Shown here in pieces: positions 42,378 to 63,906 of a DNA stretch of 64,000 bases. The position numbers were made by a program, and so were the translations under genes. The notes beneath the pieces were generated by a model. It did not search any database, had not been told where the DNA came from, and worked only from the letters and a program-made list of their open reading frames with translations. The number at the start of each line of letters is the position of its first letter. The stretch's first letter is position 1. The DNA is from Gemmatimonadaceae bacterium (GTDB lineage: Bacteria > Gemmatimonadota > Gemmatimonadetes > Gemmatimonadales > Gemmatimonadaceae). The stretch covers positions 248,001 to 312,000 of the forward strand of contig JADLCY010000011.1 of assembly GCA_020846935.1 (NCBI GenBank), written 5' to 3'.

Positions 42378-42890
42378 TTCACAGGGGTGGAGGGCGCGCG
42401 AACACTGCTGATCGAGCGTCGAAAGGGCAATGCCCGAGTTCGCCGCTGTGGTCCCGATTCGCCCGCGCGGGCGTGAGGCGCTCGTCGCCCGGACGGCCGA
42501 GGGGCGGGCGCTTCGGCTCGCCCTTGGCCCGCACGCGCGCACCCACAGGATCCATGCGATGGGCACCTCCGGTGCCCGCGCCCCTGCCCGCACGCACGCA
42601 CCCACGCACCCACGCACCCACACGATGACGACGCCGGCGCGGGCCGGCCGCACGAATCCCGTCCCATCCACCGTCGCCACCGTGGGTGACCCACCCACCC
42701 ACGACCATGCCGGCCTCAGCGCGCGACGCGCGTCGGCATCGGCGTCGAGCCGATGGTGCCGGTTCCTGACTCACCCGAGTTGTTGACTCGGACAGCACGA
42801 GGATGCGTGGCCGGCTTCGATCCTTTCACACGTTGCGCGGACGCAGGAAGCGGCTTGCCACCGAACCGCGCGTACCGGCCGACGCTCCGG
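42378..42890. other. Long intergenic region upstream of kinase 1
   Basis: Over 500 bases between two minus-strand kinase genes. It holds a short tandem repeat (42591-42621), an inverted repeat GGGCACC-TCC-GGTGCCC at 42561-42577, and G/C-rich low-complexity sequence. Potential reading frames here are not protein-like. It should contain the promoter of kinase 1; I cannot identify sigma boxes. Confidence 0.45.
42591..42621. repeat. Short tandem repeat of GCACCCAC
   Basis: Three perfect copies of the 8-mer GCACCCAC (42598-42621), preceded by CACG-type tetranucleotide repeats from 42591. A single related unit lies near 42536-42546. This is noncoding DNA upstream of kinase 1 and may be length-variable between strains. 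Confidence 0.7.
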
Positions 42891-45800
42891 CTAGCGATCG
42901 AGCGCTGCGGGACCCCGCCCGAGTTCCTCGGCCGCCGCTCGATACTTCGCCGCCTGTTCCCCGGCGCCGACGCGTGCGCCGAGGGCCGCCGCGTTCTCGA
43001 GGCACACGCGAAATCCACCCGCGGTCACGGCGTCGGCAAAGATCCCGGGCGGCGCATCGTCGAGTGCGCTGAGCGCCAGTGAGAGCCACCGCCACCCGCC
43101 AGGAGCATCGCCGGCCGCGGCGATGGTACGCGCTTCCGCACACACCGCGTCCAGGCTTCGCTCCGTCGGTACGTTTGTCTGGTATCCGAGCACGTCACGC
43201 AGTGCAACGAGTGCGCCGGCCGCGTCGCCGCGCAGAACCATCAGCTGCGCATCGAGCAGGTAATCTCCGGTTGCGCTGAGGTTGCGCACGATCTCTGGCA
43301 CGACCGTGGGAAACGAAAGGGTAGCCGCAAAGCCCGGACCCTCGACGAGCCAGTTGCCCGTCGCTCCCCCATCCACCCGACCGTGCTCCTCGACCAGGCG
43401 ACGGATCAGCGTCGTGATGGTGTCCGCGGGCTCCTGCAGTGCCGAGTACATGATCAACAAGTCCGTATCGCGATCGAGCGGTCGCGGGGTGCGCGCGCGA
43501 ATCCACTGATCCGCCTCCGATACGCGGCCCCTCAGCAGTGCCAGGCTCGCGAGAATCGCCCGATCGACGGACTGGATGGGCGCGAAGCGCTCGAGCAAGG
43601 AGTCGGACAGGGCACGCGCGTAAGGCAGTCGCGTGCCGTCGCTGACACCACGCTTGATGAGCATTCTCACCTGAGCCGCACCGGTCACCAGCTGCTGGCT
43701 GGGCGACAACGCGGCTTTGCGGGCTGCCCTGATGCTCTCGAACATGCGTTCGTCGCGCTGCATCTCGAAGGCAATCGATCGGGCGAGGAGCGCATCGCTG
43801 CTCGACGGATACGCGGCGACCCACGACGCCGTCAGGCTGTCGAACATGCGCCGCTGCCATGACACGGCCTGTCCGTGCGTCCGGGGAAGAATGTCTGAAC
43901 GGCCGCGTCGCAACGTTTCGCTCGGGATGGCCACCAGGTATAGCGAGTCGCGCGCCATGGCCGGCACGCCGGCGTAGCGGCGCCCAGAGGCGTCACGACC
44001 TTCGACGATGGCGTTCATGGAGGTCAGCATGAACCGGCGAACCAACTCGAACGACCGATTGCCGAGGGCCGGGTTCGCGGGCACCAGCTCGAGGGCCCGT
44101 CGGTAGGCATCCAGCGCGGCGTGATGGCTCGCTCGAAAGCGCGGGCGGCTGGTCTCGCCAATGACCAGCCGGTCGCTGCGCAGGCACCATGCGTAGCCCA
44201 ACCACGCTTCGTATGCGCCCGACAGGCTGTCGGCCAGGTGTCGCCAGATCGGACACGCGCGCACGACGTCGGAGCGCGCCTGGAGCAGAAGTGGCCTGAG
44301 ATATGCTATGTCTCGGCGACTGAGCCGCTTCGGAAACTGCTGCGCGCGCGTGAGAAGGAATGACCACTCGGGCAATGGCCTGTCGGACCACGATCGTACC
44401 TGGGCGAGCCTGAGCGCGGCGCCCGCGAGGCCCGGGTCATGGGTCAGGGCCAGCGCGAACATGGAGTCCGCGGTGGTGACATCCAGCGTCTCCAACGCGG
44501 CAATGCCGGCGGCGTACGCGAGCCCGGTGGGGTAGGACGTGATGCCAGCGCCGCGCGCGGACTCGGCGAGGAGGAGTTGCGCGACCATCCTGGACGGAAG
44601 GCTGTCATCGATGGCGCTGGACGTTGCGATGAGCGGCTGCTCGATATAGCGCACCAGTCGCGGCGGACGAACCTGCCAGAGGCGCGCGATGACCCTGGCG
44701 CCGTCATGCAGGGAGTCGACCTCCCCTGTCACGACGAGATCCGCGCGAAGTCGTCGGCCCAGTTCCTGGATGCCGCCATCCGGGATGGCGAGCTGACCGG
44801 CCACTGTCCCGCCGACGACGTCGAGCCCCTGCCAGGCGTACAGGGCATCGCGAATCCGTGCTTCGATGTTGGGAGCGACACTCGCGCCGCGACGTTCGAA
44901 GCGCGTGACCGCAACACGCGTCGTGGGCGCGGCAGCGACCGAAGGCTCCGAACGCGGTCGTGCTGCGCGCGCCATGAGGACGATGCCCACCAACGCACCA
45001 ATGCTCGCCACGGCCGCGATCCGTGGCGCGGTGACCCACGGTCGCGGACTCCGCGCACCGAGGGTATTGCTGACGGCCCGAAAGGCGTCGCGGGCGTCTG
45101 CCGCCGTGGCCCACCGATGCGCAGGATCGAGATGGAGACATTTCTCCACGGCCTCGCTCAGCGCGCTCGCGACATCGCCTCGGCGACTGCGCACCGTCGG
45201 CAGGTTCCCCTCGAGCCGCTTGAGCAGTGAGCCCGGGCCGGTCGCCTTGCCGTACGGCAGCTCACCGGTAAGCGCCTCGAAGAGCGCGACCCCGAGGCTG
45301 TACAAATCGCTCCGTCCATCGAGGTGGCGCCCGCCGGCGAGTTGCTCAGGGCTCGCGTAGGCCGCGGTGCCCGGCGGCCCCATGCTGGAGCGCGTGGGTC
45401 GATCGTCTCCTGTCAGTTCTGTCCAACGTGCCACGCCAAAATCCGCCAACCACGCGTTGCCGGCCAGGTCGAACATGATGTTGCTTGGCTTGACGTCGCG
45501 ATGGACGATGTGTCGGCTGTGCGCATAGTCGAGTGCGTCGCACATCTCGCTGGCCATGCGCGCGGCGACGCGCACGTCGAGCCGTCCGGCGCGCATGCGC
45601 CTGGCGAGCGTTTCTCCCTCGACGTACGGCATGACGAGGTATGGGCGCCCGTTCCATACTCCCGTGTCGAACATCGGCACGATGTGCGGGTGCCGGAGGT
45701 TCGCCATGACGCGAACCTCCTGGGAGAAACGCACCCGCGCGTCCGACGTGGTGCTGTCGTCGCGAAGCACCTTGACGGCGACCAGGCGCTCGGCGGCCAC

Positions 45801-45908
45801 CTCTCCGGCGGCCTCCTTGGCCAGGTAGACCGTGGCGAAGCCGCCGGAGCCCAACTCCCGCAGGATCTCGTACTTGCCCCCGATCCAATGCGCTTCGGAT
45901 GCGCTCAT
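42891..45908 (-). CDS. Transmembrane Ser/Thr protein kinase with C-terminal helical repeat region (2)
   Basis: A 1005-residue kinase of the same architecture as its neighbour but clearly divergent. Kinase domain at about 13-285: ELGSGGFATVYLA, Lys46 in VAVKVL, IVHRDVKPSN with Asp138, LADFGVAR with Asp156, YASPEQLAGG. A single membrane helix lies at about 294-314 (RIAAVASIGALVGIVLMA). The C-terminal 680 residues begin with a FlgO/TolB-like module (VAVTRFERRGASV, ADLVVTGEVDSL), followed by TPR-like helices with many Arg and Ala. The domain beyond the helix may sense envelope state; that is inference. The gene ends 513 bases upstream of kinase 1, so the two are probably transcribed separately. 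Confidence 0.93.
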   Translation of the reverse strand: MSASEAHWIGGKYEILRELGSGGFATVYLAKEAAGEVAAERLVAVKVLRDDSTTSDARVRFSQEVRVMANLRHPHIVPMFDTGVWNGRPYLVMPYVEGETLARRMRAGRLDVRVAARMASEMCDALDYAHSRHIVHRDVKPSNIMFDLAGNAWLADFGVARWTELTGDDRPTRSSMGPPGTAAYASPEQLAGGRHLDGRSDLYSLGVALFEALTGELPYGKATGPGSLLKRLEGNLPTVRSRRGDVASALSEAVEKCLHLDPAHRWATAADARDAFRAVSNTLGARSPRPWVTAPRIAAVASIGALVGIVLMARAARPRSEPSVAAAPTTRVAVTRFERRGASVAPNIEARIRDALYAWQGLDVVGGTVAGQLAIPDGGIQELGRRLRADLVVTGEVDSLHDGARVIARLWQVRPPRLVRYIEQPLIATSSAIDDSLPSRMVAQLLLAESARGAGITSYPTGLAYAAGIAALETLDVTTADSMFALALTHDPGLAGAALRLAQVRSWSDRPLPEWSFLLTRAQQFPKRLSRRDIAYLRPLLLQARSDVVRACPIWRHLADSLSGAYEAWLGYAWCLRSDRLVIGETSRPRFRASHHAALDAYRRALELVPANPALGNRSFELVRRFMLTSMNAIVEGRDASGRRYAGVPAMARDSLYLVAIPSETLRRGRSDILPRTHGQAVSWQRRMFDSLTASWVAAYPSSSDALLARSIAFEMQRDERMFESIRAARKAALSPSQQLVTGAAQVRMLIKRGVSDGTRLPYARALSDSLLERFAPIQSVDRAILASLALLRGRVSEADQWIRARTPRPLDRDTDLLIMYSALQEPADTITTLIRRLVEEHGRVDGGATGNWLVEGPGFAATLSFPTVVPEIVRNLSATGDYLLDAQLMVLRGDAAGALVALRDVLGYQTNVPTERSLDAVCAEARTIAAAGDAPGGWRWLSLALSALDDAPPGIFADAVTAGGFRVCLENAAALGARVGAGEQAAKYRAAAEELGRGPAALDR

Positions 45909-47505: not shown

Positions 47506-49719
47506 CTACGGCAGGATGATGTCCGTCGTGCCGAAGTCCTGACACACCTGCTGCTGCCCCGGGTCGACGTAGCAGAGGAACCCATCCGTCGATCGCCGGG
47601 AGTACCACCGGATGTTGCCCGCCACGTCGATGGCTTGTACCTGCAACACCCACTGCCCACGTGCCGCCAGGGACGAGAACGTGATCGTGCATTGCCACGT
47701 GCCGTTCGTCGGCGTGCCGCTGAAACGCGCCGGGAAGCACTCCTGGAACTGCGTGGTCTGCGTGCTCCAGTACTGCACCCGGAGGAAGTTCACGCCAGAC
47801 AGATTGTCGATGACTCCAAGCGTGGTCGTTACATCCGGCCCGTTGCTCGCGATGTTTACCGTCTGCAGGTCAGGCGGCCGGGCATCGCCGGTGCTTGTGA
47901 CCACGACTGTGGGTGAGGGAATGCAGTTCCCACCCGGATTGCACAGCTGCCCGTTGCCGTTGTCGCGGAAGTCCGAAGCACCCGACCACCCACCGTTGCC
48001 CGCGCGATCCGGCACCCGCAACAGCTGGAGCTTCCACACACCGGCCTCGGCCTGTGCCGGAATCAGGACCGGGCACTCCCAGAATCCATTCAGGCTGCTC
48101 CCCGATGTCATGGTACACGTCACGAACTGGAAGCCCGGCGTCTGACCACTCGGCCCAAGCAGCACGAAACCGAAGAAGTCGAACGGCACAAAGTTGCCCA
48201 GCCCCGCCAGGTTGTCCGTCGCCAGGAAACCAAACTGGACGATGCGCGCGCCCGCCGCGGCGTCCACGCTCACGCTCGGCGCAAACATGCGGGGCTGCAC
48301 GTCGAGACTGACCGCGAGCGACGACACGACCGGTGGCGCCACGTCGTCGGGCGCACTGTTGATCGTGATGCGGGGCACGCTGGCCACGCAGTCCGGCGGT
48401 GCAGAGCCCGTGGTACACAAGCCGTTCTGCGTGTTGCCGTAGATCACGCTGTTGCGGACCTTGTCGTGCAGCCACACGATCTGCGGCACCCACAGCCCGC
48501 TCTCCGCATAGCGCGGCACCGTGCTCTGGCAGACCCACTCGCCGTTCGTGTCGCTCCCCGAGGTCGGAGGCGCGCCCGTGAAGCAGGGGAACCGCAGCTG
48601 ACGCCCCGTGGGGCTCACCCATCGGATGTCGATGAACGACACCCCCGCGATGTCGTCGGTGAGCGAGACGCGCATCGTGAGCGCCGCGTCCGCAGACGAC
48701 GCCGACAGCGTCACCGCGTTGCCATACGTGCCCGTCACCGGATCCAGCACCTCCAGCGCGCGTACCCTGGGCGGCAGCACGTCCTGCGGCGTCTGCGGGT
48801 TGCGCGGAATGATCACGTACACGCTGAACCCGTTCACCTCGGCCGACACCGTGTGATTGACCACGTCCACCCGGCCGGCGTTCTGCTGCACATAGGCGCC
48901 GTTCACCAGCTTGTGAATGCGCAGGTCCGCCTCATTCACGTTAGGCGGCAGCTGTGCCGGATCGTACGGAATCGTCATCGTCGCCGGCAGCATGAAGCTC
49001 AGCCCGTCCGGCGCAAAGTCCCACCCGGTGCCCGGCACCAGCGGGAGGTGCGCCGGCGGCAAGTTCGTCGCCGGGGCGGCCGTGATGAACACGTCACTCC
49101 GCACAGCGCCTGGCGGCACGACGAGCGAGATGCCGCTCGTCAGGGTTACCGTTCCCCCCTGGATGCCCACGCGACCACCCGTGCCCTGCGCGATCGCAAA
49201 CTTGATCGGCAATGGCGCCCCCAGCGGCAATCGCACTTGCCCTGATCGATCCGGTTCCTCTCGCGGGCCAAGCACGTTGACGTCGGCGTATCCCAGCTCT
49301 CCGCCGCTCGCGAGCACGCGTACCCGGTACGTCTTCGCCGGATCGAGGCCGTCGCTCTGCGTGATCCACACCGCGCGGTAAAAGGTGTTCTCCACGAGCG
49401 CGAGACGCTCGCGCGAGTCGCTCGTCGACGTGATGCGGCGAACGAGCGGCAACACGCACGCCGTGCCGTTCCACTCGCAGATCTCGACCGCGAGCAGGTC
49501 GAGGACGGTGGCATCAGGCCGGATGCCCACTGGCGGCGTGGCCGCGATCGGCGGGTAGAAATGGAACCCGCTGATGGCCGCCGGCCCAACCGACATGGGT
49601 GCCGACACGGCCGCCTCGATGCCGGTTGGGATTGGCGGTCGGACCGGCTGCTCGACCTCGGTACACCCCCACAGCACGGCCGCCGCCACGGCGCCTGCCG
49701 CCATGTGAACCTTCGACAT
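47506..49719 (-). CDS. Large lipoprotein with ZU5-like domain and Ig-like repeats
   Basis: A 737-residue exported protein. ATG 49719 has a GGAGGAG ribosome site; the signal ends with the lipobox LWGC. An N-terminal beta domain (FHFYPPIAATPPVGIRPDAT) is followed by a ZU5-like module, GGTVTLTSGISLVVPPGAVR to FSVYVIIPR (about residues 185-315). Three successive beta-sandwich repeats then share the pattern variable-strand, PCF/TC/CFP cysteine, NG-x-W-x-C and an AE/AR-x-G-x-W ending. Such proteins occur on the cell surface; ligand unknown. It lies between the 472-residue lipoprotein and the BTAD-pseudokinase, all on the minus strand. Confidence 0.72.
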   Translation of the reverse strand: MSKVHMAAGAVAAAVLWGCTEVEQPVRPPIPTGIEAAVSAPMSVGPAAISGFHFYPPIAATPPVGIRPDATVLDLLAVEICEWNGTACVLPLVRRITSTSDSRERLALVENTFYRAVWITQSDGLDPAKTYRVRVLASGGELGYADVNVLGPREEPDRSGQVRLPLGAPLPIKFAIAQGTGGRVGIQGGTVTLTSGISLVVPPGAVRSDVFITAAPATNLPPAHLPLVPGTGWDFAPDGLSFMLPATMTIPYDPAQLPPNVNEADLRIHKLVNGAYVQQNAGRVDVVNHTVSAEVNGFSVYVIIPRNPQTPQDVLPPRVRALEVLDPVTGTYGNAVTLSASSADAALTMRVSLTDDIAGVSFIDIRWVSPTGRQLRFPCFTGAPPTSGSDTNGEWVCQSTVPRYAESGLWVPQIVWLHDKVRNSVIYGNTQNGLCTTGSAPPDCVASVPRITINSAPDDVAPPVVSSLAVSLDVQPRMFAPSVSVDAAAGARIVQFGFLATDNLAGLGNFVPFDFFGFVLLGPSGQTPGFQFVTCTMTSGSSLNGFWECPVLIPAQAEAGVWKLQLLRVPDRAGNGGWSGASDFRDNGNGQLCNPGGNCIPSPTVVVTSTGDARPPDLQTVNIASNGPDVTTTLGVIDNLSGVNFLRVQYWSTQTTQFQECFPARFSGTPTNGTWQCTITFSSLAARGQWVLQVQAIDVAGNIRWYSRRSTDGFLCYVDPGQQQVCQDFGTTDIILP

Positions 49720-49834
49720 GTACTCCTCCTCGGTTGTGCGCGTGCTGAGCTGATGCGCGAGGAGGGCCGGGCCTTTCACCGTCGGCCGGTCAGGTCCGGG
49801 GTCGGCTGAAGGGATCCACTGCCGACAGACGCCC

Positions 49835-51460
49835 TTACGCGCCACCACGCGGCGGCCACAGGGTGGCCACAGCATCGCGCATCGCCCGCATGCTCGAGAA
49901 CCGATCCGCTGGATGGCGCGAGAGCGCCCTGTCCACCAGCGCCTCCAGGTCGGGCGGTACGGTCTCGCGGAACACGCCAAGCCGAGGCGGGGCGAGCCGC
50001 AACTTGTCGAGGCCGGGCGCGCCGTCGCGCCCGAACGGCAGGCGTCCGGCGATCAGCTCGAACAGGATGGTCCCGAGGGCGTACACGTCGCCGACCACGT
50101 TGGGCGGTCCGCCGCTCACCTGCTCCGGGCTTTGGTAGTTCGGCGATCCGAGCGAGAGCACCGTGGACCGATCTTCCCGCACGACCGCGTGTCTCAGCGC
50201 CTCGACGAAGCCAAACCCGCCAAGCATGATCGACTCACCGGACAGGGCAATGTGCTTGGGCCTGAGGTCGCCATGCACGCACCCGCCCTCGTGCGCATGG
50301 GCAATGGCATCGGCCAGCGACGTGATGATGCGCAGCGCCCGGTCGATCGGCACGGCGCCGCCCTGGCGCAACGCATCACGCAGTCGCGGGCGCCCGTGTG
50401 CCGCGCACACCACCACGAACCCCTCTGCGGAGGCTCGCCATGTGAGCGTGGGAACGATCGCGGGATGGGAGAGCTTTGCGGCGTGCGCGAAGGCGCGGTC
50501 GAAGGCCGCCGGCGTAAGGGCCGCGGCCACCCTGGGTTGCAGCAGGTGCGCCTCGCGTGTCGAGCCGTCAGTCGCCATGAGCCGGTAGGTCGCGGCCAGG
50601 GTCCCATCTTCCACCAGGTCCACGACTCGATACGATGCACCAAGGAGCGACCCGACCAGTCGCCGGCGCCTGGCCTCAACGTCGCCGGGCTCAGTGTGAA
50701 CGGCCAACTCACCCGCAGGCCCCCCCGGTGTCCGGACCACGCCTGACGAGTCCGCAGACGCCCGGAGCCGCTCGATTCCCACGAGCACCGCGGGGTCGAC
50801 GCTGCCGATCTGCGCCCGGGCCAGCTTCACGTGCAGTTCGGCGATGCGCAGCCCTTCGACAAGCTCGCCAGCCTCGAGGTGCGACGACAGCAGCTCAACG
50901 ACGGCGCGCGCCCGCAACGGATCCTTTGCCACCACCTCGCGCCACCGCGCGGCGGCGGCGCGATGGTCACCTTGCTCTGTTGCCCGGCGAGCGAGGCGCT
51001 CCATGGCGTCCAACACACGTCCGGACAACCGTTGCCGCACCGACGAGAGCTGCTGCTCCAGCTCACGGGACCCGCCGATGCGCAGTCCCTCGGCGAACTC
51101 CCCTCGATGCATCGCCGCCGCACGCTCCAGATGCCCGACTTCCAGCGCACGCTCGAACTCGTCCACGTCACACACCAGGACACCGGCGCCCCAGCGTACC
51201 GTCGGCCCTGCAGCGAACAGCCGCTTCTCTCCAAGGTCGCGTCGCGCGCGGCTCAGCAGCTCATCCAGCGAATGCCGAGCCGCCGCGTCGTCGCTGTCGG
51301 GCCAGAGCCACGCGGCCAGGCGATCGCGCGTGACACCCCGTGTGCCCGCGGCGCCCAGCAGGGCGAGCAGGGCACCGCGTTGCCAACCGCGTTCAGGCCA
51401 ATCGAGCAAGACCCCGTCGCGAAGCAAGGCCAGGGGTCCGAGCAGGTTCAGTCGAAGCAT
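49835..51460 (-). CDS. BTAD transcriptional-regulator domain fused to a pseudokinase
   Basis: A 541-residue cytoplasmic protein without membrane segment. Residues 1-235 match SARP/BTAD regulators: a winged-helix part (LLGPLALLRDGVLLDW, LAAWLWPDSDDAAARHSLDE) and helical BTAD. Residues 275-541 have a Hanks-kinase fold but lack catalysis: no glycine-rich loop (LVEDGTLAATYRL), no VAIK lysine (EAHLLQP), HRD changed to HGD (396-398), DFG changed to GFG (415-417), while SPEQ and DVYALGTILFEL are kept. It should bind DNA and perhaps a nucleotide or a kinase rather than phosphorylate. The ATG at 51460 is 84 bases from a divergent ECF sigma gene. Confidence 0.85.
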   Translation of the reverse strand: MLRLNLLGPLALLRDGVLLDWPERGWQRGALLALLGAAGTRGVTRDRLAAWLWPDSDDAAARHSLDELLSRARRDLGEKRLFAAGPTVRWGAGVLVCDVDEFERALEVGHLERAAAMHRGEFAEGLRIGGSRELEQQLSSVRQRLSGRVLDAMERLARRATEQGDHRAAAARWREVVAKDPLRARAVVELLSSHLEAGELVEGLRIAELHVKLARAQIGSVDPAVLVGIERLRASADSSGVVRTPGGPAGELAVHTEPGDVEARRRRLVGSLLGASYRVVDLVEDGTLAATYRLMATDGSTREAHLLQPRVAAALTPAAFDRAFAHAAKLSHPAIVPTLTWRASAEGFVVVCAAHGRPRLRDALRQGGAVPIDRALRIITSLADAIAHAHEGGCVHGDLRPKHIALSGESIMLGGFGFVEALRHAVVREDRSTVLSLGSPNYQSPEQVSGGPPNVVGDVYALGTILFELIAGRLPFGRDGAPGLDKLRLAPPRLGVFRETVPPDLEALVDRALSRHPADRFSSMRAMRDAVATLWPPRGGA

Positions 51461-51544: not shown

Positions 51545-52189
51545 ATGCTTGCGGCGACCTCCGATCGGGTTACCGCCATGCCGTCCGCCTGCCTCCACAC
51601 CGTTGCCCACCCCGCGCCTTCGCCCGCACTCGACCACGCCGTCGCCGTCCTCCAGGTCATGAATGACCCCGCCGGGCTCCTCACCACTCAGGAGCAGCGG
51701 GCCGTCGCCATGATCTTCATGAGCTATCGCGACATGATGCACGTCGCCGCGCGACGGGTGCTCGCCTGCCCGGCCGATGCTGAAGACGTGGTGCACGAGA
51801 TCTTTGCTCGCCTTCCGCAACTCATCCGCGGCTATCGTCATCGCGGTCTTGGCGGCTGGCTCCGCCGGGTTGCCGTCACCCACGCGCTCATGGTGGTGCG
51901 ACGCCGGCGCACGCACGATGCGCTGCTTGGCGAGATCGTCGATGCCCTCGGTTCAGACCCCAGGGAGGTGGACGACGAGGCCCTGCGCGCCGCCATGGTG
52001 ATGCTGCCCGTGGCCCTGCGCGAAGTCGTGGTGCTGCGCTTCTTCCTGCAGCTGCCGCATGCCGACATCGCCGAGCTGTTGGAGCTGACGGTGACGGCGT
52101 CGGAGCTGAGGGTGCATCGGGCGGTGCGTCGGCTTCGCGATCTCGTGGTCACGCCCGTCGCGCCGAAGCCGCCACGCCAAGCGGCATGA
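51545..52189 (+). CDS. ECF-like sigma-70 family sigma factor
   Basis: A 214-residue sigma factor. Region 2 is seen in MSYRDMMHVAARRVLACPAD, AEDVVHEIFARLPQL and LGGWLRRVAVTHALMVVRRR; region 4 in LPVALREVVVLRFFLQLPHA and ASELRVHRAVRRLRDLV. The N-terminal 40 residues are additional and variable; ATG 51578 (MPSACLHTV) is an alternative start. No anti-sigma gene is adjacent. It is divergent from the BTAD-pseudokinase, so the two may be controlled from the shared 84-base region. Confidence 0.9.
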   Translation: MLAATSDRVTAMPSACLHTVAHPAPSPALDHAVAVLQVMNDPAGLLTTQEQRAVAMIFMSYRDMMHVAARRVLACPADAEDVVHEIFARLPQLIRGYRHRGLGGWLRRVAVTHALMVVRRRRTHDALLGEIVDALGSDPREVDDEALRAAMVMLPVALREVVVLRFFLQLPHADIAELLELTVTASELRVHRAVRRLRDLVVTPVAPKPPRQAA

Positions 52190-53317: not shown

Positions 53318-56300
53318 ATGTGGCTACGCACCCTCGGCTCCGCCGAGATCGCTCCTGACGCCGAGGCGCCCCCTGCCCTGGGCGCCGGCAAACCCGTCGC
53401 GCTCCTCACCTACCTCGCCGCATCCGGCCGCACCGCGACGCGCAGCGTTCTCCAGTCCCTCCTGTGGGCCGACCTCGAACCCGACGCCGCGCGACACGCG
53501 CTGCGCCAGGCGCTCTGGTACCTGCGCCGCAAACTCGGGCCCGACATCGTCGCCGCCGACAGCGAAACGGTCACGCTTGGCCCCCACGTCCGCGTCGATC
53601 GCGACGCGCTCCTCGCGGCCTCGGCCGCGGGCGATCACGACCTGGTCGCCGAGCGGTACACCGGACCGTTTGTCCCGGGGTTCGCTGCCCCAGGTGGCGC
53701 CGGGTTCGAAGAATGGGCCGCGCTCGAGCGACGCCGCCTGCTCGAAGTCTTTCGCCACGCCGTCGAGCTGATCGTCTCGGCGCGCGTGGCCTCGGGGCGT
53801 GCGCGCGATGCGATCGATCTGGCCAAACGCCTCCGCGACTACGACCTCTACAACGAAAATGGCTGGCGGCTGCTCCTCGACGCCTGCGCGTCGGCCGCTG
53901 ACCTGCTCACCGCCAAGAAGGAAGCCGAAGCGCTCCAGCAGCTCGCCGAGCAGGACGACCTCGAACTCGAGCCGGCGACCCGCGCCGCGATCCGCCACGC
54001 GCGCGCCGCCTCGACCACCAACGGCGCCGCGGTCAACGCGGACGAGCCGGCGCCGCAGGTGCCCGTGGGCTCGCTGGTCGGGCGTGAAGAGCACTTTGCT
54101 TCGCTCCTCTACGCCTGGGATCGCGCGCGCGCCGGCGCGACGGTGCGCATTCATCTCACAGCGCGACCCGGCATCGGCAAGACCCGCCTCCTCACCGACT
54201 TCGCCGCGCGCATCCGCGCCCTCCGTGCCAAGGTCGTCACCGCGGGCGGGCGTATCGGAGCCCGCGACATCCCGTGCGCCGCCGCCGGCGACCTCAGCGA
54301 GGGACTCGCGGCACTGGCCGGACGTCAGTCGATCTCCGCCGAGTCGGCCGCCACGCTCGTTGCGCTCAATCCCGCGCTCTCCACCTGGTTCGAACGTCCC
54401 GCGCGGCACGCAGACTCCAACGACGCGCTGCGTTCGCGAACGCTCGCGCTCCGCGAACTGGTACGCTCGGCGACGTTCGAACATCCGGTCGCCATTCTCC
54501 TCGACGACCTGCACTGGTGGGACGAGGAGTCCAGCACACTGCTCGCTGCCGTGATCGACGGGTTGGGTGACGCCCGACTCCTCCTCGTATCCACGGGACG
54601 GCCCGAAGCCAGACGCGCCCCGCTCGTGAGTGGACCCGCCACGCAGCACCTGATGCTGGAGTCACTCACCGCCAGCCAGATCGAGGAACTCTTCCTGAGT
54701 ATCGCCCGCGCGCCGGCAGAACCGTGGGCCGTCACGTTCCCCGCCGAGCTGTGGCGCGCGTCGCGCGGCTCCCCGCTGCTGGCGCTCGAGATGCTGCAGT
54801 TGCTGGAGCAGCGGCAACTGCTCAGGCGGGAACTGGGCGCATGGGTATCATCCCGGCCCGAGGCGCTGGCTGCCGAGCTTGCGACGAGTGATGTCCTGCA
54901 GGCGCGGCTCGAAGAGCTCGACCGCGGCGATCGATGGATCCTCCTGCTCCTGGCCACCGCGGGGACACCGCTCGACCTCGGTGACCTCACGGTCGCCTCG
55001 GAGCGGCCAGGCGCTGAAGTTGAGGAGCGCCTGATGGGGCTCGACGCGCGCGGGCTCGTGATCCGCACCGGGACGTTGGCAAGCGTGGCGCACGACGAGA
55101 TCGGCGACGAGGTGCTGCGCCATGCGGGGCACGAGGCGACGGCACGTGCCGCATTGCGGCTCGGCACCGTGCTCGCCAGCGAGGCCGGCTTCAACGAGAA
55201 CCGGGCGCGACGCGCCGGGCAGCTGCTACGCACCGCGGGCCCCGACGTGCAGGCCGAACTGGTGCATCGCTTCGCCGCGCACCGCTATGCAGCCGGAGAT
55301 CGTCGCGCGCCGGCCGGAATTGCCCGCGAGCTGTTCGGCGGTCAGCTGTCCGCGACGGATGAAGCCGCCGTCTCGCGCCGGCTGCCGTGGACGTGGCGAC
55401 TCGGCCTCGTGTCCGCGGCCCGGCGCCGTGTCGCCCTGCTCGCCGCAGGCGCCGTGGCGGCCTTTGGTATCGCGCGAGGCATGTTGCCATCCGCCGCAGC
55501 ACCGCCGGACGCCGTGCTCGGCATCGCGGTTGTCGACACCTCGGGGAATCTCTCGTTCTTCCAGGCGGAGATTCGCGACGACGCATGGCTTCCCAACACG
55601 CCGATCACCACGACTCGGTGGCCCGACGTGGCTGGCTATGAGCTCAGCTCCGGCAGTCCGCGCACCCTCACGTGGGACCCTGTCCGCGCGGTGCTATACA
55701 CGGCCGAGGCATCCGAGGAGGGCACCATCGACCTGTTCGCGCGTCAGGGCGCGCGAGCACCGGTGCGGCTCGCTGGTGCGCCGGGGGACGACGGGATGCC
55801 ATCCCTCTCACCCGACGGCACCAGGCTCGCTTTCAGCACGGCGCGGTGGGACACGCTGAGCCGTTATGACATCGCCGTGTACCGCTTTGCCGACAGCAGT
55901 GTGACGCAGCTGACTTCCGGGTTGGCGACCGACGCGGCGCCCGTGTGGGCACGCGACGGCGAACGCATTGCCTTCAGCCGCAACAACTGGCTCGTGCAGC
56001 CTAACGAGTTGTGTGTCGTGGCAGAGCGCACGCGGGCGACCAGCTGCACGCCGCTCGACTCAGGGCACTGGGCATACGTCCAGGGTTGGCTCGATGACGA
56101 TCGCGTGCTCTATGTGGAGTTCTCGCGCGGCAGTCAGGAGCTTCGCGTGCTGCAGGTGTCGACCGGCGCCCGTGAAACGATGTTCGCCGGACCCGCCTCG
56201 TCGTTCGCGACCCCGAGCCCCGACGGCCGGTGGGCCTTCTGCATCTGTCCGTTTCGGCCGGGCCGCGAACCCGAACCCATCCTCTTCCCGATCTCCGCAC

Positions 56301-57307
56301 CCTACCTCGCGCGCCGGGTGGTGCTGTCGGCGGATGTCACGGGCTTGCCGCGCGCATTCTGGATCAGCTCGCGCTCGAACGCCGCCGTCGCACGCGTGAC
56401 GATCCACCGCGGCCTCGATTCGCTCCCTGTTGGCGTCGCCAGCCAGCTCCTCGCCACCGTCGAGGACGGACGCGGCAATGACCTGCGCGACCACGCGCAG
56501 ATCCGATGGTGGGTGCGGGACACGAGCGCGGCCCGTATCGATCCGACGACTGGAGTCCTCACTCCGCTGCCGGGCGCAGGGCGCGTGATAGTCCACGCCT
56601 CAGTAGGGCGCAGTGCTTCGGACTCCATCGTGATCGACACCTATTCCCCCGACGTGACAGTTCGCCTCGACGAGTCGTGGCTCGATCCCTCTCTCGCGGA
56701 GTGGATCCCCTATGGCAAGCCCGAGCCGCGCATCGTGACCTCGCGCGGACGGCGCGCGTTCCTCAACAACGGCGAAGGATCGTTCACCAGCGGCGCGGTC
56801 ACCCGTCGCTCGTTCGATGGGCGCCACGGTCTCACCGTGGACGCCGAAATCTCCGCCCTCGTGAACAAACCCCAGTGGCAAACCCTTGGGCTGATGCTGC
56901 GCGAGCAGCTCGATACCACCCGCGTCCGTCGATCGCTCGGCCACAACGTGGATCCGGACATCGGGGGGCTTGCGACGTGCGGTGTGGGGTTCCCCGGCGA
57001 AGACCAGGTGGTCGACGGCAAAGTGATCTCCATGAATCACTCCGGCGGCTCGTACTCCATCGCAGCAACGCCGTCATGGCTGGACGGCACGTGGCACTCG
57101 ATCCGAGTGCAGCTCTTCCCTGACGGACGCTGTGGCCTGGCGCTGGACGGCCGACCGATCGTGGTGCTCCCGGCCGGGCGTCGCGTGAGCGCGAGCTATC
57201 GATTGAACCTGCTGGGAAACTCCCGCTGGACGGAGATGCTCATCGGACGCGTGGTGGTTCGCGAGGGCGTCGCCACGGACATGGACTGGTCGCGGCGCAG
57301 GGGCTGA
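53318..57307 (+). CDS. Giant BTAD-ATPase-transmembrane-propeller-Ig-lectin regulator
   Basis: A 1329-residue single-pass protein. Residues 1-235 are a SARP-like winged helix plus BTAD (LLWADLEPDAARHALRQALW). An AAA/STAND-type ATPase follows: Walker A ARPGIGKTR near 282-290, Walker B AILLDDLHWWDEES near 392-405. A helix near 703-722 (RVALLAAGAVAAFGIARGML) is the only membrane segment. Beyond it come TolB-like propeller repeats (MPSLSPDGTRLAFSTARWD, DAAPVWARDGERIAFSRN), a Big_2-like Ig module near 1000-1090, and a C-terminal lectin/LamG-like sandwich. This implies a cytoplasmic regulator and an exported sensor in one chain. ATG 53318 lacks a ribosome site, so it may be leaderless. Confidence 0.85.
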   Translation: MWLRTLGSAEIAPDAEAPPALGAGKPVALLTYLAASGRTATRSVLQSLLWADLEPDAARHALRQALWYLRRKLGPDIVAADSETVTLGPHVRVDRDALLAASAAGDHDLVAERYTGPFVPGFAAPGGAGFEEWAALERRRLLEVFRHAVELIVSARVASGRARDAIDLAKRLRDYDLYNENGWRLLLDACASAADLLTAKKEAEALQQLAEQDDLELEPATRAAIRHARAASTTNGAAVNADEPAPQVPVGSLVGREEHFASLLYAWDRARAGATVRIHLTARPGIGKTRLLTDFAARIRALRAKVVTAGGRIGARDIPCAAAGDLSEGLAALAGRQSISAESAATLVALNPALSTWFERPARHADSNDALRSRTLALRELVRSATFEHPVAILLDDLHWWDEESSTLLAAVIDGLGDARLLLVSTGRPEARRAPLVSGPATQHLMLESLTASQIEELFLSIARAPAEPWAVTFPAELWRASRGSPLLALEMLQLLEQRQLLRRELGAWVSSRPEALAAELATSDVLQARLEELDRGDRWILLLLATAGTPLDLGDLTVASERPGAEVEERLMGLDARGLVIRTGTLASVAHDEIGDEVLRHAGHEATARAALRLGTVLASEAGFNENRARRAGQLLRTAGPDVQAELVHRFAAHRYAAGDRRAPAGIARELFGGQLSATDEAAVSRRLPWTWRLGLVSAARRRVALLAAGAVAAFGIARGMLPSAAAPPDAVLGIAVVDTSGNLSFFQAEIRDDAWLPNTPITTTRWPDVAGYELSSGSPRTLTWDPVRAVLYTAEASEEGTIDLFARQGARAPVRLAGAPGDDGMPSLSPDGTRLAFSTARWDTLSRYDIAVYRFADSSVTQLTSGLATDAAPVWARDGERIAFSRNNWLVQPNELCVVAERTRATSCTPLDSGHWAYVQGWLDDDRVLYVEFSRGSQELRVLQVSTGARETMFAGPASSFATPSPDGRWAFCICPFRPGREPEPILFPISAPYLARRVVLSADVTGLPRAFWISSRSNAAVARVTIHRGLDSLPVGVASQLLATVEDGRGNDLRDHAQIRWWVRDTSAARIDPTTGVLTPLPGAGRVIVHASVGRSASDSIVIDTYSPDVTVRLDESWLDPSLAEWIPYGKPEPRIVTSRGRRAFLNNGEGSFTSGAVTRRSFDGRHGLTVDAEISALVNKPQWQTLGLMLREQLDTTRVRRSLGHNVDPDIGGLATCGVGFPGEDQVVDGKVISMNHSGGSYSIAATPSWLDGTWHSIRVQLFPDGRCGLALDGRPIVVLPAGRRVSASYRLNLLGNSRWTEMLIGRVVVREGVATDMDWSRRRG

Positions 57308-57915: not shown

Positions 57916-59460
57916 TCAGGGCGCCCCGCCAGGCAGACCAACGCCGCCGAACGTGTAGTACGGCAACCCCTGCGAAATCAGCTCGCGACCCGACACCGGC
58001 ATCTGGAACGGCGTCCCGCGCACCAGCTTGCCCCAGCCGCGCGCATCGAACCAGGCCACGTCGCCCCGATACGGATACAGCTCGATCTTCTTTTCGTACT
58101 GGATCGCGTCGAGCAGGTTCCCGCAGCTGCCGTCGTCCTTGCGCGGCACGCAGTCGCGACCGGCAGGCGGACCGTTGGCGTCGGCGGCCTTGAGACCCGC
58201 AGCGACTCGGGTGGGGTTGATCAGCGCGGCCGCCTCAGTACCGCGACCCAGACGATACAACGCCTCCGCCCGCACGAACTTCATCTCGTCCATCGACAGC
58301 TCGAGGATGAAGGCTCGGGACCCGGAATCCGCAGCGGTGTTGAGATAACGCGTGCTGCGGTATGACGAGGTGAGGTGTGGGCCGTTCGTGGCGCTGCCCA
58401 TGGTGCTCGACAAGCGCGTGAAGCGCGTGCCAGGGGTGGTGTTCCCTGCCGCGCCGTGGATGCGCCGGTCGGGTGTGGTGATGGTGAAGGCGGTACGCGC
58501 CGCCAGCGACGCGGCCACCCACGCCTGGTACCTGCCCGAGGTGTCCGCCGGTCCGATCAGGCGGTTGCTGATCCGCACGGTGTTCTGCGCGAACGAGTTG
58601 TTGATGTACGTGGAACCCGTGCCGGCGATGGCGGGATCGGCCTGATGACCAAAATCGCGGGTGATGGTGGAGTCCAGTCGCGCCAGCACCGCGGCCCATG
58701 GCACGGCTGCCCGCTCGGCGGCGTTCCTGGGGGCGTACACATCGGCATGCACGAGGTAGGTGTAGCAGATGCGGACGAGTTCATCTCGCGTGATGGGCCG
58801 TCCGTTGATGAACGTGGCCGGCCACGTAAAGTTGGCCGTCGCACGCGCATCGGCGATGACGTTGCGCAGCTGCGCCTTGGCTGCCGCCAGAACCTGCGCC
58901 GACGGACTCAGGTTCTTGCCTCGCTCGCCCTGCGCCGTCGCCGTGTCGGTGATGAATGCCTGGTCGAAGTACAGGCCGTGACGCAGCGTGTTGATCGCAA
59001 TGATGAACTTCGCGAAGATGAGCCGCGACGGGGTATCGGCTCCGTTGGGCGTCGTCGCGTTGACGGCACCGAACTTGAGGGCGTTGCCCTTGATGCCCTG
59101 GAAACTCTCGCGCGCACCGGCAATGGACTCATACGGAGTCCAGTAGCCGCTTCGCGTCGCGCAGTTCAGGTTGTCCCGATTGTTGATCGGGATGCGCGGC
59201 TCGTTCGAGAAGTCGATGTAGGTGATGCTGGTCGAGGTGTTGTCGTCGCCCCAGATCGCCATGGGGAGCGTGGGGCAGGTGGCTCGGCTCACTTCGGTGT
59301 AGGCCTTCCACGACCCGATCAGCGCCGCCTCCGTGTTCGCCGGGTTGGAGAACACGTTGCTGATGCCAAGGCCATTGGGGTCGGTCACGTCGAGGTCGAG
59401 ACAGGCCGAGAGGCTGCCTGCGAGGGCGAGCGCGGCTGCCGTGAGGCGTGCGTTGGACAT
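57916..59460 (-). CDS. RagB/SusD-family outer-membrane nutrient-binding lipoprotein
   Basis: A 514-residue lipoprotein (519 residues if it starts at the ATG 59475 that overlaps the SusC stop). The signal ends with the lipobox LSAC, giving CLDLDVTDPNG at the mature N-terminus. The SusD fold is supported by LIGSWKAYTEVSRATCP, AINTLRHGLYFDQAF, ARATANFTWPATFINGRPIT and the C-terminal NLLDAIQYEKKIELYPYRGD with the usual R/YEKK motif, ending in LPYYTFGGVGLPGGAP. It forms the lid for the TonB-dependent transporter encoded immediately upstream. The imported nutrient is not visible. Confidence 0.93.
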   Translation of the reverse strand: MSNARLTAAALALAGSLSACLDLDVTDPNGLGISNVFSNPANTEAALIGSWKAYTEVSRATCPTLPMAIWGDDNTSTSITYIDFSNEPRIPINNRDNLNCATRSGYWTPYESIAGARESFQGIKGNALKFGAVNATTPNGADTPSRLIFAKFIIAINTLRHGLYFDQAFITDTATAQGERGKNLSPSAQVLAAAKAQLRNVIADARATANFTWPATFINGRPITRDELVRICYTYLVHADVYAPRNAAERAAVPWAAVLARLDSTITRDFGHQADPAIAGTGSTYINNSFAQNTVRISNRLIGPADTSGRYQAWVAASLAARTAFTITTPDRRIHGAAGNTTPGTRFTRLSSTMGSATNGPHLTSSYRSTRYLNTAADSGSRAFILELSMDEMKFVRAEALYRLGRGTEAAALINPTRVAAGLKAADANGPPAGRDCVPRKDDGSCGNLLDAIQYEKKIELYPYRGDVAWFDARGWGKLVRGTPFQMPVSGRELISQGLPYYTFGGVGLPGGAP

Positions 59461-59474
59461 GATGGCGCGCCTCA

Positions 59475-62400
59475 TCAGAAAGTGACAGTGACCACACCCG
59501 TGAGGGTGCGGGTGAGTGGATACGTCGCGTCGTCGAAGCGCACGGTTGGGCTGCCCGCCATTACGTTGAGCCCCGAGTACCTCGTGAACGTGGCCATGTT
59601 GCGGCCAAGCAGGTCCACCTGCATACGGTCGATGCCAAGCTTCCCGAGCCACTGGTGCGACTTGGACTCGAACGTGTAGCCCACCAGCAGTTCCGAAATG
59701 CTCAGGTGGGTCGCACGCTCGACGAAGTTCGCCAGGTACAGGTTGTTGTTGTTCGACACCGCGTTGTAGTACCGCACCGACTTCTTGAGATGATCGGCTT
59801 TGCCGAACTGATCGACGTCGGGGTGGTCACCGGACGCGTAGTACGTCTGGTTGGTGTTCCCGTACACATCGCCACCAAGCTGGCCGGCGGCCTGGATGTA
59901 GAACCGCAGGTTGCGATACCTGAAGTTGTTGTTCAGGCCGAACTTCAGAGCAGGATTGCTGTCGCCGATCTTGCTGTAGTGGAGCTGCCCGTTCTCGTCG
60001 TAGCGCGGCAGCGGCAGGCCCCAGCCGTAACTCACGCCGTCGATGAGGACCTGCGTGCCCCAGAGGTTCTTGGCCACGCCGTCGCGCCAGGTGTTGCCAA
60101 CGCCCACCGGTACGACGAAGCCCTCGTCGTTGATGTCGAACGCATTCATCGAGTTCGCGTGCCGCACCGGCAGGTGCGCCTTGTCGCGCACGATCTGATT
60201 GCCCCACATCTCGCTCAGGCGGATGCCGTCGCATTTGTACTGCAGCCCGTCGTCGAAGCAGGTTCGGCCGAAGTTGCCGGTGTTGAGCCGCGAGTGGTCC
60301 GCCACCAGCAGCACCGTCCATTGCAGGCCGCGGGGATTGGTAAGCACCGCCCCCTGGATCGTGCCCTCGATGACACTGCCGCCAAGCTTGGCCGGGTTGG
60401 TCACCACGAGCTGGTAACCCGAGACCGCGGGCGCCGGGATGTTCACGAACACGTCGCGGCTCAGGTTGCGAACCCAGGTGAGCGAGCCGGACACGCGCGA
60501 CCGATAGGACATGTCGAGCCCGAGTTCCTGCTCGCGGGTGAACGTGGGCGAAATCTTCGGATTGCCCAGGTTGCTGCGGCGAATGCCACCGCTCCCGTCG
60601 GACGACATGGCCTCGTACTGGTACGAGAAGTTTGGGCTCACGCCCGTCACACCAAAGCTGTAGCGCAGCTTGAAGTTCGTGAAATTTTCGAACGGGAACC
60701 AATCCTCTTCGCTGAGGAGCCATGCCATCGAGGCGCGACCGAACGTGTTCCAGCGATTGGCGCGACCGAACAGCGAGTTGCCCTCACGGCGCAGCAGGAA
60801 GTCACCGATGTACTTCTCGTTGTAACTCACGCCCAGCGTGCTGATGACGCCCAGGACGCGGTAGTCGGTGATGCTCTGCGTCGAGTTCTTCGTCCGCGCC
60901 TGCGCCATCGACTTGAGGCCTTCCGTGGCGAAGTCCGTCCCCGTCGTGCTCACGCTGGGGTTGTACTCGCGCCGCTGTTCGCCGCGCTCAGACAACCGGA
61001 ACGTCCATCCGCCGAGCTGCTTGGTGGCGGTCGCCGTCCCGGTCATGATGTAGCCGTCAGTGGTGTTGTTCTGGATGTTGAGGCTACCGGTGCTCGGGCT
61101 CAGTCCGCCGGTGCTGGTCACCAGCGGCGTGCCGCGAGCCGTGTAGCCGGTGAGGTTCACGTCACCACGGTCATAGTTGCCGTCGGCCGCCAGCGTGAGC
61201 CACGAGAACGGGCGGTACGCACCGTTGACGTTGATCAGCGTGCGCTGCCGGCTCGCGACGCTGTCCTTGATGAACTGCGTGTACAGCGGATTCGTGTACA
61301 GCGTGACCGAATCGGGGACGATGACGTAGGGAAAGCCGAAGGACGGGAACGGCGCTTTCTCCTTCAGATTCACGTCGGTATCGATCCGGTAGAAGTTGTT
61401 GAACGACGGCGCCGACACGTCCTGCACACCGCGCGTGTGGCTGGCCGAAATGCCGACGTTGAGCTTCTCGTTGAGCCGCGAATCGACATTCACGCGGAAC
61501 GACTGACGCCGATACCCCTCGTTGTCATCCAGGACGCCGGGGTTGATCGTGCGGGTGTACGCCACGTTGTAGTTGGTCGACGCCGCGTTGCCCTGCACCG
61601 TGGCCGTCTGTGAGTTGTACGAACCCGGCTTGTAGAAGAGCGCCGCATGGTTGTACGTCTTCGACGTAAACGGCGCGTCCATGATGCCCAGCGGTTTCAG
61701 CGCGCGCTGGGAGCGCGGTACGATCTGCCCCGTGGCGTTGAGCCAGTTCCCTTGCGCATCCTGCATGAACGCGTGGTGCTGGTTCTTCTCCATCGTCACC
61801 TGGTAGCGGTCCACGCCGGCCTCGGTGCGCACCTGGAACTGGTTGGACCCCAGCGCGAGACCCTTGCCACGCTTGGTCGTGATGGCGATGACGCCGGCCG
61901 CCGCACGCGACCCATACAGCGACGCCGCCGCAGCCCCCTTGATGACCTCGATGCTCTCGATGTCCATCGACTCGATGTCTTGCGTGGTAACAGACTGCCC
62001 CTGATTCAGGAACACCCCGTCGACCACGAAGAGCGGGCTCGGAGGTGCGCCATCCTCCGTGATGCCCGAGATTGGCGTGCGAAGCAGGATGTTCACCCCC
62101 GACCCCGGCGCGCCACTCGGCCGCGTGATCGCAACACCCGCCACCTTGCCGGCAATCGCGCCGGCCGCCGACGTCGTTGGCGGCACCGGCATGTCGGCCG
62201 CGGTGAGTTTGTCGACCGTGATTGTCGACTTGGCGACCGACACCTCGTCGATGGTCCCCGAAACCGTCACCTGGTCCAGGCGCAACACGCTCGGGTTCAT
62301 CATGAAGTTGATCGTCGCCACGCTGTCGGCGACGAGCCGGATGTTCTCGCGGCGCTGCGCCGAATAGCCGAGGAACTTGGCTTCGATCGAGAAGATGCCG

Positions 62401-62675
62401 GTGGGTGCGCTGGCGATGGCGTATCGACCGTCGTCGCCCGTCGTCGCCGTGACCGGAGTGCCCACGATGATGACGTTGACGCCGCGCAGGGGTTGTTTTG
62501 TCTCCAGATCCGTGACGAGGCCCGTGACGCGTGCGCGACGTGCCGACACGGGTGTCTGATTCGCCTGTGCCTCCAGGTCGACGGCACCAACTACGAGGAG
62601 CAGCACCAACGACGAAGCCAACCGGGAACAACCGCGGACCACAAGGGTCCGCCGAGCATACGAAACTCGGCTCAT
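59475..62675 (-). CDS. SusC/RagA-family TonB-dependent outer-membrane receptor
   Basis: A 1066-residue receptor. ATG 62675 is preceded by an AAAGGAGA ribosome site. After the signal peptide, a carboxypeptidase-regulatory-like domain (VTGLVTDLETKQPLRGVNVI) spans about 48-130. It is followed by the plug, with QVTVSGTIDEV, PLFVVDGVF and IEVIKGAAAASLYGSRAAAG, then a long barrel ending in VVTVTF with the terminal aromatic. The SusC-type double-strand signature is present. SusC and SusD together import a ligand using TonB energy. The stop overlaps a possible susD start (TGATG), so translation is coupled. Confidence 0.96.
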   Translation of the reverse strand: MSRVSYARRTLVVRGCSRLASSLVLLLVVGAVDLEAQANQTPVSARRARVTGLVTDLETKQPLRGVNVIIVGTPVTATTGDDGRYAIASAPTGIFSIEAKFLGYSAQRRENIRLVADSVATINFMMNPSVLRLDQVTVSGTIDEVSVAKSTITVDKLTAADMPVPPTTSAAGAIAGKVAGVAITRPSGAPGSGVNILLRTPISGITEDGAPPSPLFVVDGVFLNQGQSVTTQDIESMDIESIEVIKGAAAASLYGSRAAAGVIAITTKRGKGLALGSNQFQVRTEAGVDRYQVTMEKNQHHAFMQDAQGNWLNATGQIVPRSQRALKPLGIMDAPFTSKTYNHAALFYKPGSYNSQTATVQGNAASTNYNVAYTRTINPGVLDDNEGYRRQSFRVNVDSRLNEKLNVGISASHTRGVQDVSAPSFNNFYRIDTDVNLKEKAPFPSFGFPYVIVPDSVTLYTNPLYTQFIKDSVASRQRTLINVNGAYRPFSWLTLAADGNYDRGDVNLTGYTARGTPLVTSTGGLSPSTGSLNIQNNTTDGYIMTGTATATKQLGGWTFRLSERGEQRREYNPSVSTTGTDFATEGLKSMAQARTKNSTQSITDYRVLGVISTLGVSYNEKYIGDFLLRREGNSLFGRANRWNTFGRASMAWLLSEEDWFPFENFTNFKLRYSFGVTGVSPNFSYQYEAMSSDGSGGIRRSNLGNPKISPTFTREQELGLDMSYRSRVSGSLTWVRNLSRDVFVNIPAPAVSGYQLVVTNPAKLGGSVIEGTIQGAVLTNPRGLQWTVLLVADHSRLNTGNFGRTCFDDGLQYKCDGIRLSEMWGNQIVRDKAHLPVRHANSMNAFDINDEGFVVPVGVGNTWRDGVAKNLWGTQVLIDGVSYGWGLPLPRYDENGQLHYSKIGDSNPALKFGLNNNFRYRNLRFYIQAAGQLGGDVYGNTNQTYYASGDHPDVDQFGKADHLKKSVRYYNAVSNNNNLYLANFVERATHLSISELLVGYTFESKSHQWLGKLGIDRMQVDLLGRNMATFTRYSGLNVMAGSPTVRFDDATYPLTRTLTGVVTVTF

Positions 62676-62783
62676 GTTCTCCTTTGGGGATGAGGGTCTG
62701 GGTGAAGCCGGCGGAATATTACGACGCCTGGAAAAATCAGCTAGATCGCTGGAAACCAAACTGTCGATCAGCCATTTTCTGCC
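62676..62783. promoter_or_regulatory. Divergent promoter region of susC and a plug-domain gene
   Basis: A relatively AT-rich 108-base gap between two divergent genes. On the minus strand TAATAT at 62716-62721 is a fair -10 box for susC, but no good -35 box sits 17 bases upstream. The assignment as promoter rests mainly on gene orientation. Confidence 0.35.
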
Positions 62784-63575
62784 ATGCTCGTATCCAAACC
62801 ATGGGTGCGCGCCCTCGTGCGCCTCGCGGTGACGGCCCCCGCCTGGTCTACGGGCGCACAGGTCACCTCTGACTCCGGCGCCGTCCGACCCGTGGACGCA
62901 CTCGTCATACGAGTCGTGGATGTCGTGGGCCAGCCTATGCCACAGGTCGAAGTGTCCATCGTCGGATCCAACCGATCCGGCCGCACCGACGACCGTGGTA
63001 TATGGCGAACCGTCGACCCCCCACCTGGTCCCCGGGTGGTCATGGCCCGGTCGATCGGGTACGTGCCCTATTCGCGCGAGCTGCTGATCGGCAACGGAGC
63101 CCGCGATACGATCACGCTGCTGCTCCGTCGGTTCCCCCGGACGCTCACTACCATAGAAGTCCAGGCGCGCACCCGCGTGATGACGAGCCGCGTGAACGAC
63201 GTGGCCGAGCGGCTGCTCCAGATGCGGGTCGGCTCTGGCAGGTTGTTCACGCGCGAGGAGATCCTGCAGATGCGGCCGTATTCGGTCGCCGAGCTGGTAT
63301 ACGGCGTCCCCGGCGTGAACATCCGCCGCGGTCAGAGCGAGATCGTCGCAACCTCCACGCGCGCCGGCGTCGGCATCATGAACGTGGAGGGGCAAGCCTG
63401 TCAGCTGCAGTTCTATCTCGATAGCACGCCCATCGACAACGAAGGCGTCGTGGTCCTCGACCCCACGACGTTCCGGAGCGTCGAGGTGTACCCGCAAACC
63501 GTTCAGCTCACCGGCCTCGCGATGCGCCCCGATCGGTGCGGAGCCATCGTGATCAACTCGATGCGCCAGCGGTAG
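62784..63575 (+). CDS. Secreted CarboxypepD_reg-plus-plug protein without barrel
   Basis: A 263-residue exported protein. The signal ends near PAWSTGAQ. A carboxypeptidase-regulatory-like domain follows (VIRVVDVVGQPMPQVEVSI, MARSIGYVPYSRELLI), and then a TonB-type plug-like region (LTTIEVQARTRVMTSRVNDV, MRPYSVAELVYGVPGVNIRR, QLQFYLDSTPIDNEGVVVLD, SVEVYPQTVQLTGLAM). The outer-membrane barrel seen in real receptors is absent; the protein simply ends with CGAIVINSMRQR. It lies divergent to susC. It might act as a regulator or partner of a TonB-dependent receptor; unproven. Confidence 0.78.
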   Translation: MLVSKPWVRALVRLAVTAPAWSTGAQVTSDSGAVRPVDALVIRVVDVVGQPMPQVEVSIVGSNRSGRTDDRGIWRTVDPPPGPRVVMARSIGYVPYSRELLIGNGARDTITLLLRRFPRTLTTIEVQARTRVMTSRVNDVAERLLQMRVGSGRLFTREEILQMRPYSVAELVYGVPGVNIRRGQSEIVATSTRAGVGIMNVEGQACQLQFYLDSTPIDNEGVVVLDPTTFRSVEVYPQTVQLTGLAMRPDRCGAIVINSMRQR

Positions 63576-63906
63576 CCGACGAGGCGCTGCCAGGTCGCGC
63601 CCGCGGAGCACCCTCCGCAATCGTGCGGAAGGACGACGGCATGACCGAGTCCACTCCCCCGAGCAGGCCATGGATCGTGCGCACGATGGGAATCAGCGTC
63701 GTTCGATGGCCCCTGCCGACCTCTGCTGCCTGTGGTCGGGTTCGCCTCGCTGTGGAGGTGGCGCGCCAATGACCGAGGCCCGTTCGCCACAGACTTTCCT
63801 TCGTTGAAGGCGATAGCTACCGTCGACTCTCGGAGAGTCGCGGGGACCGTACGCGCGCCATGGCGGCGCCGACGGGCAACCGCTACATGGGTGGAGGAAC
63901 GCGACC
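63576..63906. other. Intergenic region with a palindrome
   Basis: About 330 bases without a supportable gene. It contains a 17-base palindrome CGACTCTC-G-GAGAGTCG at 63824-63840, possibly an operator, and a TCCGCAA/TGCGGA hairpin near 63615, which could be a weak terminator of the plug-protein gene. No RNA gene is apparent. Confidence 0.4.

Follow-up and report, generated by a model that had tools for sequence, protein, structure and literature searches.

A gene in the 64,000-nucleotide stretch of DNA analysed here (the window) belongs to a conserved family of proteins that combine a SARP regulator, a STAND ATPase, a predicted transmembrane (TM) helix and an exodomain in one polypeptide. Single-frame relatives that align over nearly the full length and contain no internal stops are present in 30 of the 298 genomes searched within its phylum (whole-protein search, own genome counted), where they are spread over three families and many genera. 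A search of genome contigs also returned one partial actinobacterial match. Conservation counts given below refer to a 34-member alignment (A1), in which identity to the window protein ranges from 24 to 46%. The preliminary description of this DNA had proposed a SARP regulator followed by an AAA/STAND ATPase, a membrane helix and an exported propeller-Ig-lectin sensor, and the family-level sequence evidence agrees with that architecture, weakly so for the lectin part. We read the protein as a membrane-integrated one-component transcription receptor, ToxR-like but with a SARP-STAND output, and put the probability of this reading at roughly 0.62. Its features are as follows.

53318..57307, + strand: whole gene, 1329 aa, SARP, STAND ATPase, TM helix and exodomain in that order; full-length single-ORF relatives
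53324..53602, + strand: OmpR-type winged-helix DNA-binding domain, residues ~3-95; Trans_reg_C in 24/34 members, profile alignment to AfsR
53654..53986, + strand: BTAD, residues 113-223; Pfam PF03704, 22.7 bits, 27/34 members
54074..54589, + strand: AAA_16 / STAND nucleotide-binding domain, residues 253-424; Pfam E 4.5e-17, 34/34 members
54161..54187, + strand: Walker A, residues 282-290; G285, G287, K288 and R290 invariant
54494..54517, + strand: Walker B, ILLDDLHW, residues 393-400; D396, D397, H399 and W400 invariant
54599..54601, + strand: sensor-1-like Arg428; invariant, assigned by analogy with NB-ARC/STAND motifs
54767..54778, + strand: GxPL motif, putative equivalent of the NB-ARC 'GLPL'; G484, P486 and L487 invariant
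55091..55096, + strand: MHD-like motif, His592-Asp593; invariant
55427..55483, + strand: predicted transmembrane helix, residues ~704-722; family hydropathy maximum, positive-inside bias
55535..56347, + strand: TolB/PD40-like propeller repeats, residues ~740-1010, with the Cys899/Cys910 pair; PD40 in 34/34, TolB profile match
56399..56647, + strand: Big_2-like Ig module, residues ~1028-1110; Big_2 in 17/34, Ig-repeat profile matches
56660..57283, + strand: C-terminal LamG/lectin-like sandwich, residues ~1115-1322, with the Cys1221/Cys1272 pair; weak LamG matches

A proposed route from envelope to promoter

In the mechanism that we propose, the cytoplasmic SARP would bind direct repeats as a dimer and bring in RNA polymerase, following the example of AfsR, and the adjoining STAND ATPase would keep it off in a resting or ADP state. 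One helix would cross the membrane with the N-terminus inside, and the exported propeller-Ig-LamG-like domain would sense an extracytoplasmic ligand or the state of the envelope. Ligand binding or dimerisation outside would then release the autoinhibition, leading to ATP binding and a free SARP, and no kinase, second protein or proteolysis would be needed for the signal to pass. AfsR has a SARP that is inhibited by the NOD and TPR domains of the protein; ATP relieves the inhibition by being bound, not by being hydrolysed. For the window protein, the sequences show the domains, the conserved STAND motifs and a shared architecture, and their statistics support the topology; we infer ligand sensing, nucleotide switching and promoter activation, and analogy with AfsR (PMC10936776) and with ToxR/CadC (PMC5936718) suggests that an envelope signal may be carried to the promoter.

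The signal might instead be passed by regulated proteolysis, in which the exodomain would trigger cleavage near the helix and so free the SARP-STAND part, which would then work as a soluble activator in the manner of AfsR. The cytoplasmic half does resemble large soluble SARPs, and the same genome encodes a soluble BTAD-AAA-TPR relative without the helix (L077). Against this, CadC acts uncleaved, at full length (PMC5936718), and a gene-neighbour search around the relatives found no neighbour conserved across the family, hence no dedicated protease gene alongside. Cleavage is, in our judgement, unlikely. The same search gave no neighbour that would point to a target or a pathway, and within subclades, too, the gene sits between unrelated genes. 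We take the window gene for an orphan regulator.

A chain that combines a BTAD with a Ser/Thr protein kinase domain (49838-51445, - strand) is divergent from the window gene, and between the two lies an ECF-type sigma factor (51545-52189, + strand), on the same strand as the window gene. A SusC/SusD-like pair, named from a reading of the sequence, occupies 57916-63671 (- strand); neither the sigma factor nor this pair has a counterpart beside the relatives. Near three relatives lie kinases akin to the BTAD-kinase and, since AfsR itself is phosphorylated by kinases such as AfsK, a link between the BTAD-kinase and the SARP-STAND protein is conceivable by analogy. Two large Ser/Thr kinase genes, one with TPR-like repeats, stand in a row at 39222-45908 (- strand). 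An exported lipoprotein-like protein with DUF7743, ZU5/Big-like parts and a lipobox-like LWGC is encoded at 47509-49800 (- strand). It occurs in only three of the 298 phylum genomes, and in two of these (the window's own and G036) its gene lies within ~5 kb of a gene for a SARP-STAND-TM-propeller protein; from these two cases, it is possible that the DUF7743 protein is a target or partner.

The predicted membrane helix and the exodomain behind it

The membrane helix that had been placed near residue 710 is borne out at the level of the family. Family-averaged hydropathy over 19 residues peaks at residues 704-722 (1.64, z 4.05), with the runner-up at 1.20 (z 3.03). Summed over the family, the 20 residues before the helix hold 176 Arg and Lys residues and the 20 behind it 53, which argues for an N-terminus inside. 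The Cys899/Cys910 and Cys1221/Cys1272 pairs, each present in 33 of 34 members, both lie behind the helix, whereas before it no alignment column has Cys in more than half of the members; such a distribution would fit disulfide bonds formed in an oxidising compartment. A single transmembrane helix, N-in and C-out, is a prediction supported by the alignment. The helix has many Ala residues and moderate hydrophobicity. Not every member has a strong one, since hydropathy at this place stays below 1.6 in seven of the 34; when the longest run free of charged and amide residues is taken as the criterion, only 13 members place it there.

The moderate hydrophobicity of those seven members favours a reading in which the helix does not span a membrane and the whole chain is cytoplasmic, arranged like APAF1 (effector, NB-ARC, propeller) and sensing a cytoplasmic signal through its propeller. 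STAND proteins such as APAF1 do have WD40 propellers behind the NB-ARC domain. This reading is nevertheless quite improbable given the positive-inside bias and the confinement of near-invariant Cys pairs to the region behind the helix; it is also at odds with the Ig and LamG modules, which are typical of exported proteins, and with a sister class that retains the helix and swaps the domain behind it.

The exodomain itself was resolved into three parts, of which the lectin-like end is the most weakly supported element of the whole chain. The TolB-like propeller of the preliminary description is recovered throughout the family: Pfam recognises PD40 repeats in the window protein from residue 822 (E 2.2e-10) and in all 34 members, and the family profile has TolB structures among its matches (E 1.3e-23). 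The Big_2-like module is likewise found, in 17 of 34 members (best E 1.5e-7), although the Pfam Big_2 model has no match in the window protein itself; the family profile also matches Ig-like repeats from Lig proteins, from intimin and from other proteins. As for the lectin-like sandwich said to end the chain, a weak likeness to LamG held up, the label 'lectin' only weakly so. Laminin_G_2 is found in three and Laminin_G_3 in one of 30 members (at most 4/30 in all), at E 4e-4 or weaker, and hhalign of the last ~200 residues against seven LamG domains of the phylum gave a probability of 56% (E 1.2e-4) over 40 columns, centred on 'G-W-H...PDG...DG'. Since these matches are weak and few, we rate a lectin-like C-terminal sandwich as plausible.

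The sister class, of ~1000-1070 aa, aligns with the window protein only over residues 1 to ~600-725. Its helix sits in the same position, but the exodomain behind it is another one, ~300 residues long and free of propeller repeats; the sequences of the class support the view that it keeps residues 1-730 as a chassis and swaps the exodomain. That what follows the helix is exchanged supports placing the boundary of output and input at the helix. In a tree of residues 1-690, built by a quick method, branches are long and the labels of exodomain type are clustered. These proteins could form a modular class of receptors, a proposal that we advance tentatively and at somewhat less than even odds, in which a STAND switch would be operated across the membrane, at least two unrelated exodomains would be mounted on one SARP-STAND-helix chassis, and extracytoplasmic ligands would control ATP/ADP exchange and promoter recruitment. 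As part of the same tentative proposal, the exodomain would be either of the propeller-Ig-LamG type or a shorter, beta-rich one.

Further relatives depart from this plan. Two have a BTAD and then a hydrophobic helix, without the ATPase. The window's own genome encodes a BTAD-AAA-helix-TPR protein (L078, 4677-8543, - strand) with a P-loop that lacks the Lys (EPGMGVSR), for which reason its STAND domain has perhaps lost ATP binding or hydrolysis. A 1090-aa relative (L098, 1838-5110, + strand), with an alignment that starts at residue 235 and a helix near 464, is either a protein that lacks the SARP part and retains ATPase, helix and sensor, or the product of a broken frame.

The SARP half, the ATPase and the reading frame

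The N-terminal 235 residues were described from the start as resembling a SARP-type regulator, and profile evidence upholds this. The BTAD stands directly behind the winged helix, as a SARP requires, and is recognised in 27 of 34 members; Trans_reg_C is recognised in 24. In the window protein the BTAD scores 22.7 bits, just above the Pfam cut-off of 22.1. A SARP profile of residues 1-250, built from 17 members, aligned from its position 22 onwards to residues 41-264 of AfsR (E 8.2e-6 to 4.8e-8 by chain), the match at E 4.8e-8 covering 61-284 of chain 8hvr_I. W74, E76, R87 and R94 are among the residues of AfsR that contact DNA or RNA polymerase (PMC10936776); they align with W50, D52, R63 and R70 of the window protein, and in the family W50 is kept in 34/34 members, D52 in 29/34, R63 in 33/34 and Arg or Lys at 70 in 33/34. 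The base-reading residues of AfsR, T88 and R92 (PMC10936776), are replaced by Q64 and Y68, as would be expected if the target sequence differs. At the position of D71, mutation of which diminished activation by AfsR (PMC10936776), 22 of the 34 members have Asp and the window protein has Ser47. SARPs activate transcription from direct repeats near -35; the direct repeats seen upstream of the window gene are weak ones only.

The changed DNA-reading positions, together with a BTAD barely over the Pfam cut-off, would also suit a membrane STAND signalling protein that is no transcription activator, its SARP-like part serving as a protein-interaction or oligomerisation module. We give this little credence: each of W50, R63 and a basic residue at 70 is missing from at most one of the 34 members, a pattern in keeping with DNA binding, and Trans_reg_C is recognised in most of the family. 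Under the preferred reading, that of a transcription receptor, the SARP would be governed by the ATPase next to it. The Walker A and Walker B motifs reported earlier lie at residues 282-290 and 393-400, and their key positions are invariant in all 34 members. The same invariance extends to Arg428, the GxPL motif and His592-Asp593, which we take to be the sensor-1 Arg, GLPL and MHD of NB-ARC/STAND proteins. These motifs mark the ATPase as a STAND switch.

A frameshift or assembly error had been named beforehand as something that would undo the proposed architecture. The ORF at 53318-57307 (+ strand) runs from an ATG through 1329 aa in one unbroken frame. Because the same single ORF, of ~1330-1540 codons and without internal stops, recurs in independent genomes, a frameshift or chimera is excluded and the chance that the frame was fused through sequencing or assembly error is negligible. 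Single-sequence AlphaFold models (pLDDT 41 for residues 1-665 and 32 for residues 698-1329) were too poor to use.

Comparison with known systems

Each half of this protein is known already; for the combination, no description of such a SARP-STAND-TM-exodomain protein was found in the searched literature, mostly without subscription journals. To our knowledge, the STAND switches described so far (MalT, AfsR, APAF1, plant resistance proteins) act as soluble sensors, and we know of no ATP-controlled step in ToxR-type receptors. A family that joins the two would add to two-component systems and ECF sigma factors a further way of controlling genes across a membrane, one in which an extracytoplasmic signal could reach a promoter through a single molecule. 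It would also offer a natural chassis with exchangeable sensors, and it raises the testable question of whether a single TM helix can control when a STAND domain exchanges its nucleotide.

In MalT and APAF1, as in the reading given here of the window protein, a nucleotide-binding switch is coupled with both effector and sensor. Propellers occur in APAF1 too; both proteins are soluble, whereas the window protein has a predicted membrane helix between switch and sensor. A STAND ATPase would be expected to have its C-terminal repeat sensor in the compartment of the ATPase; the window protein does have such repeats, those of the propeller, but they follow the predicted helix. AfsR of Streptomyces coelicolor, the SARP domain of which has been seen in cryo-EM complexes with RNA polymerase (PMC10936776; PDB 8hvr, 8jke, 8k60), likewise has an N-terminal SARP (winged helix and BTA), a STAND-type nucleotide-binding domain and a C-terminal sensor region. 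It differs in being soluble and in having a TPR sensor where the window protein has the helix and the propeller-Ig-LamG-like exodomain; Pfam finds no TPR behind the ATPase of the window protein. TolB, a periplasmic propeller, is matched by the exodomain repeats, but the window propeller is fused to a transcription regulator and has no sign of working with Pal. Finally, ToxR and CadC (PMC5936718) have, as predicted for the window protein, a winged helix at a cytoplasmic N-terminus, a single TM helix and an extracytoplasmic sensor at the C-terminus; their winged helix joins the TM helix with no other cytoplasmic domain. In the window protein, by contrast, the winged helix is SARP-type, and BTAD and a complete STAND ATPase are interposed between it and the membrane, which makes an ATP-controlled step possible.
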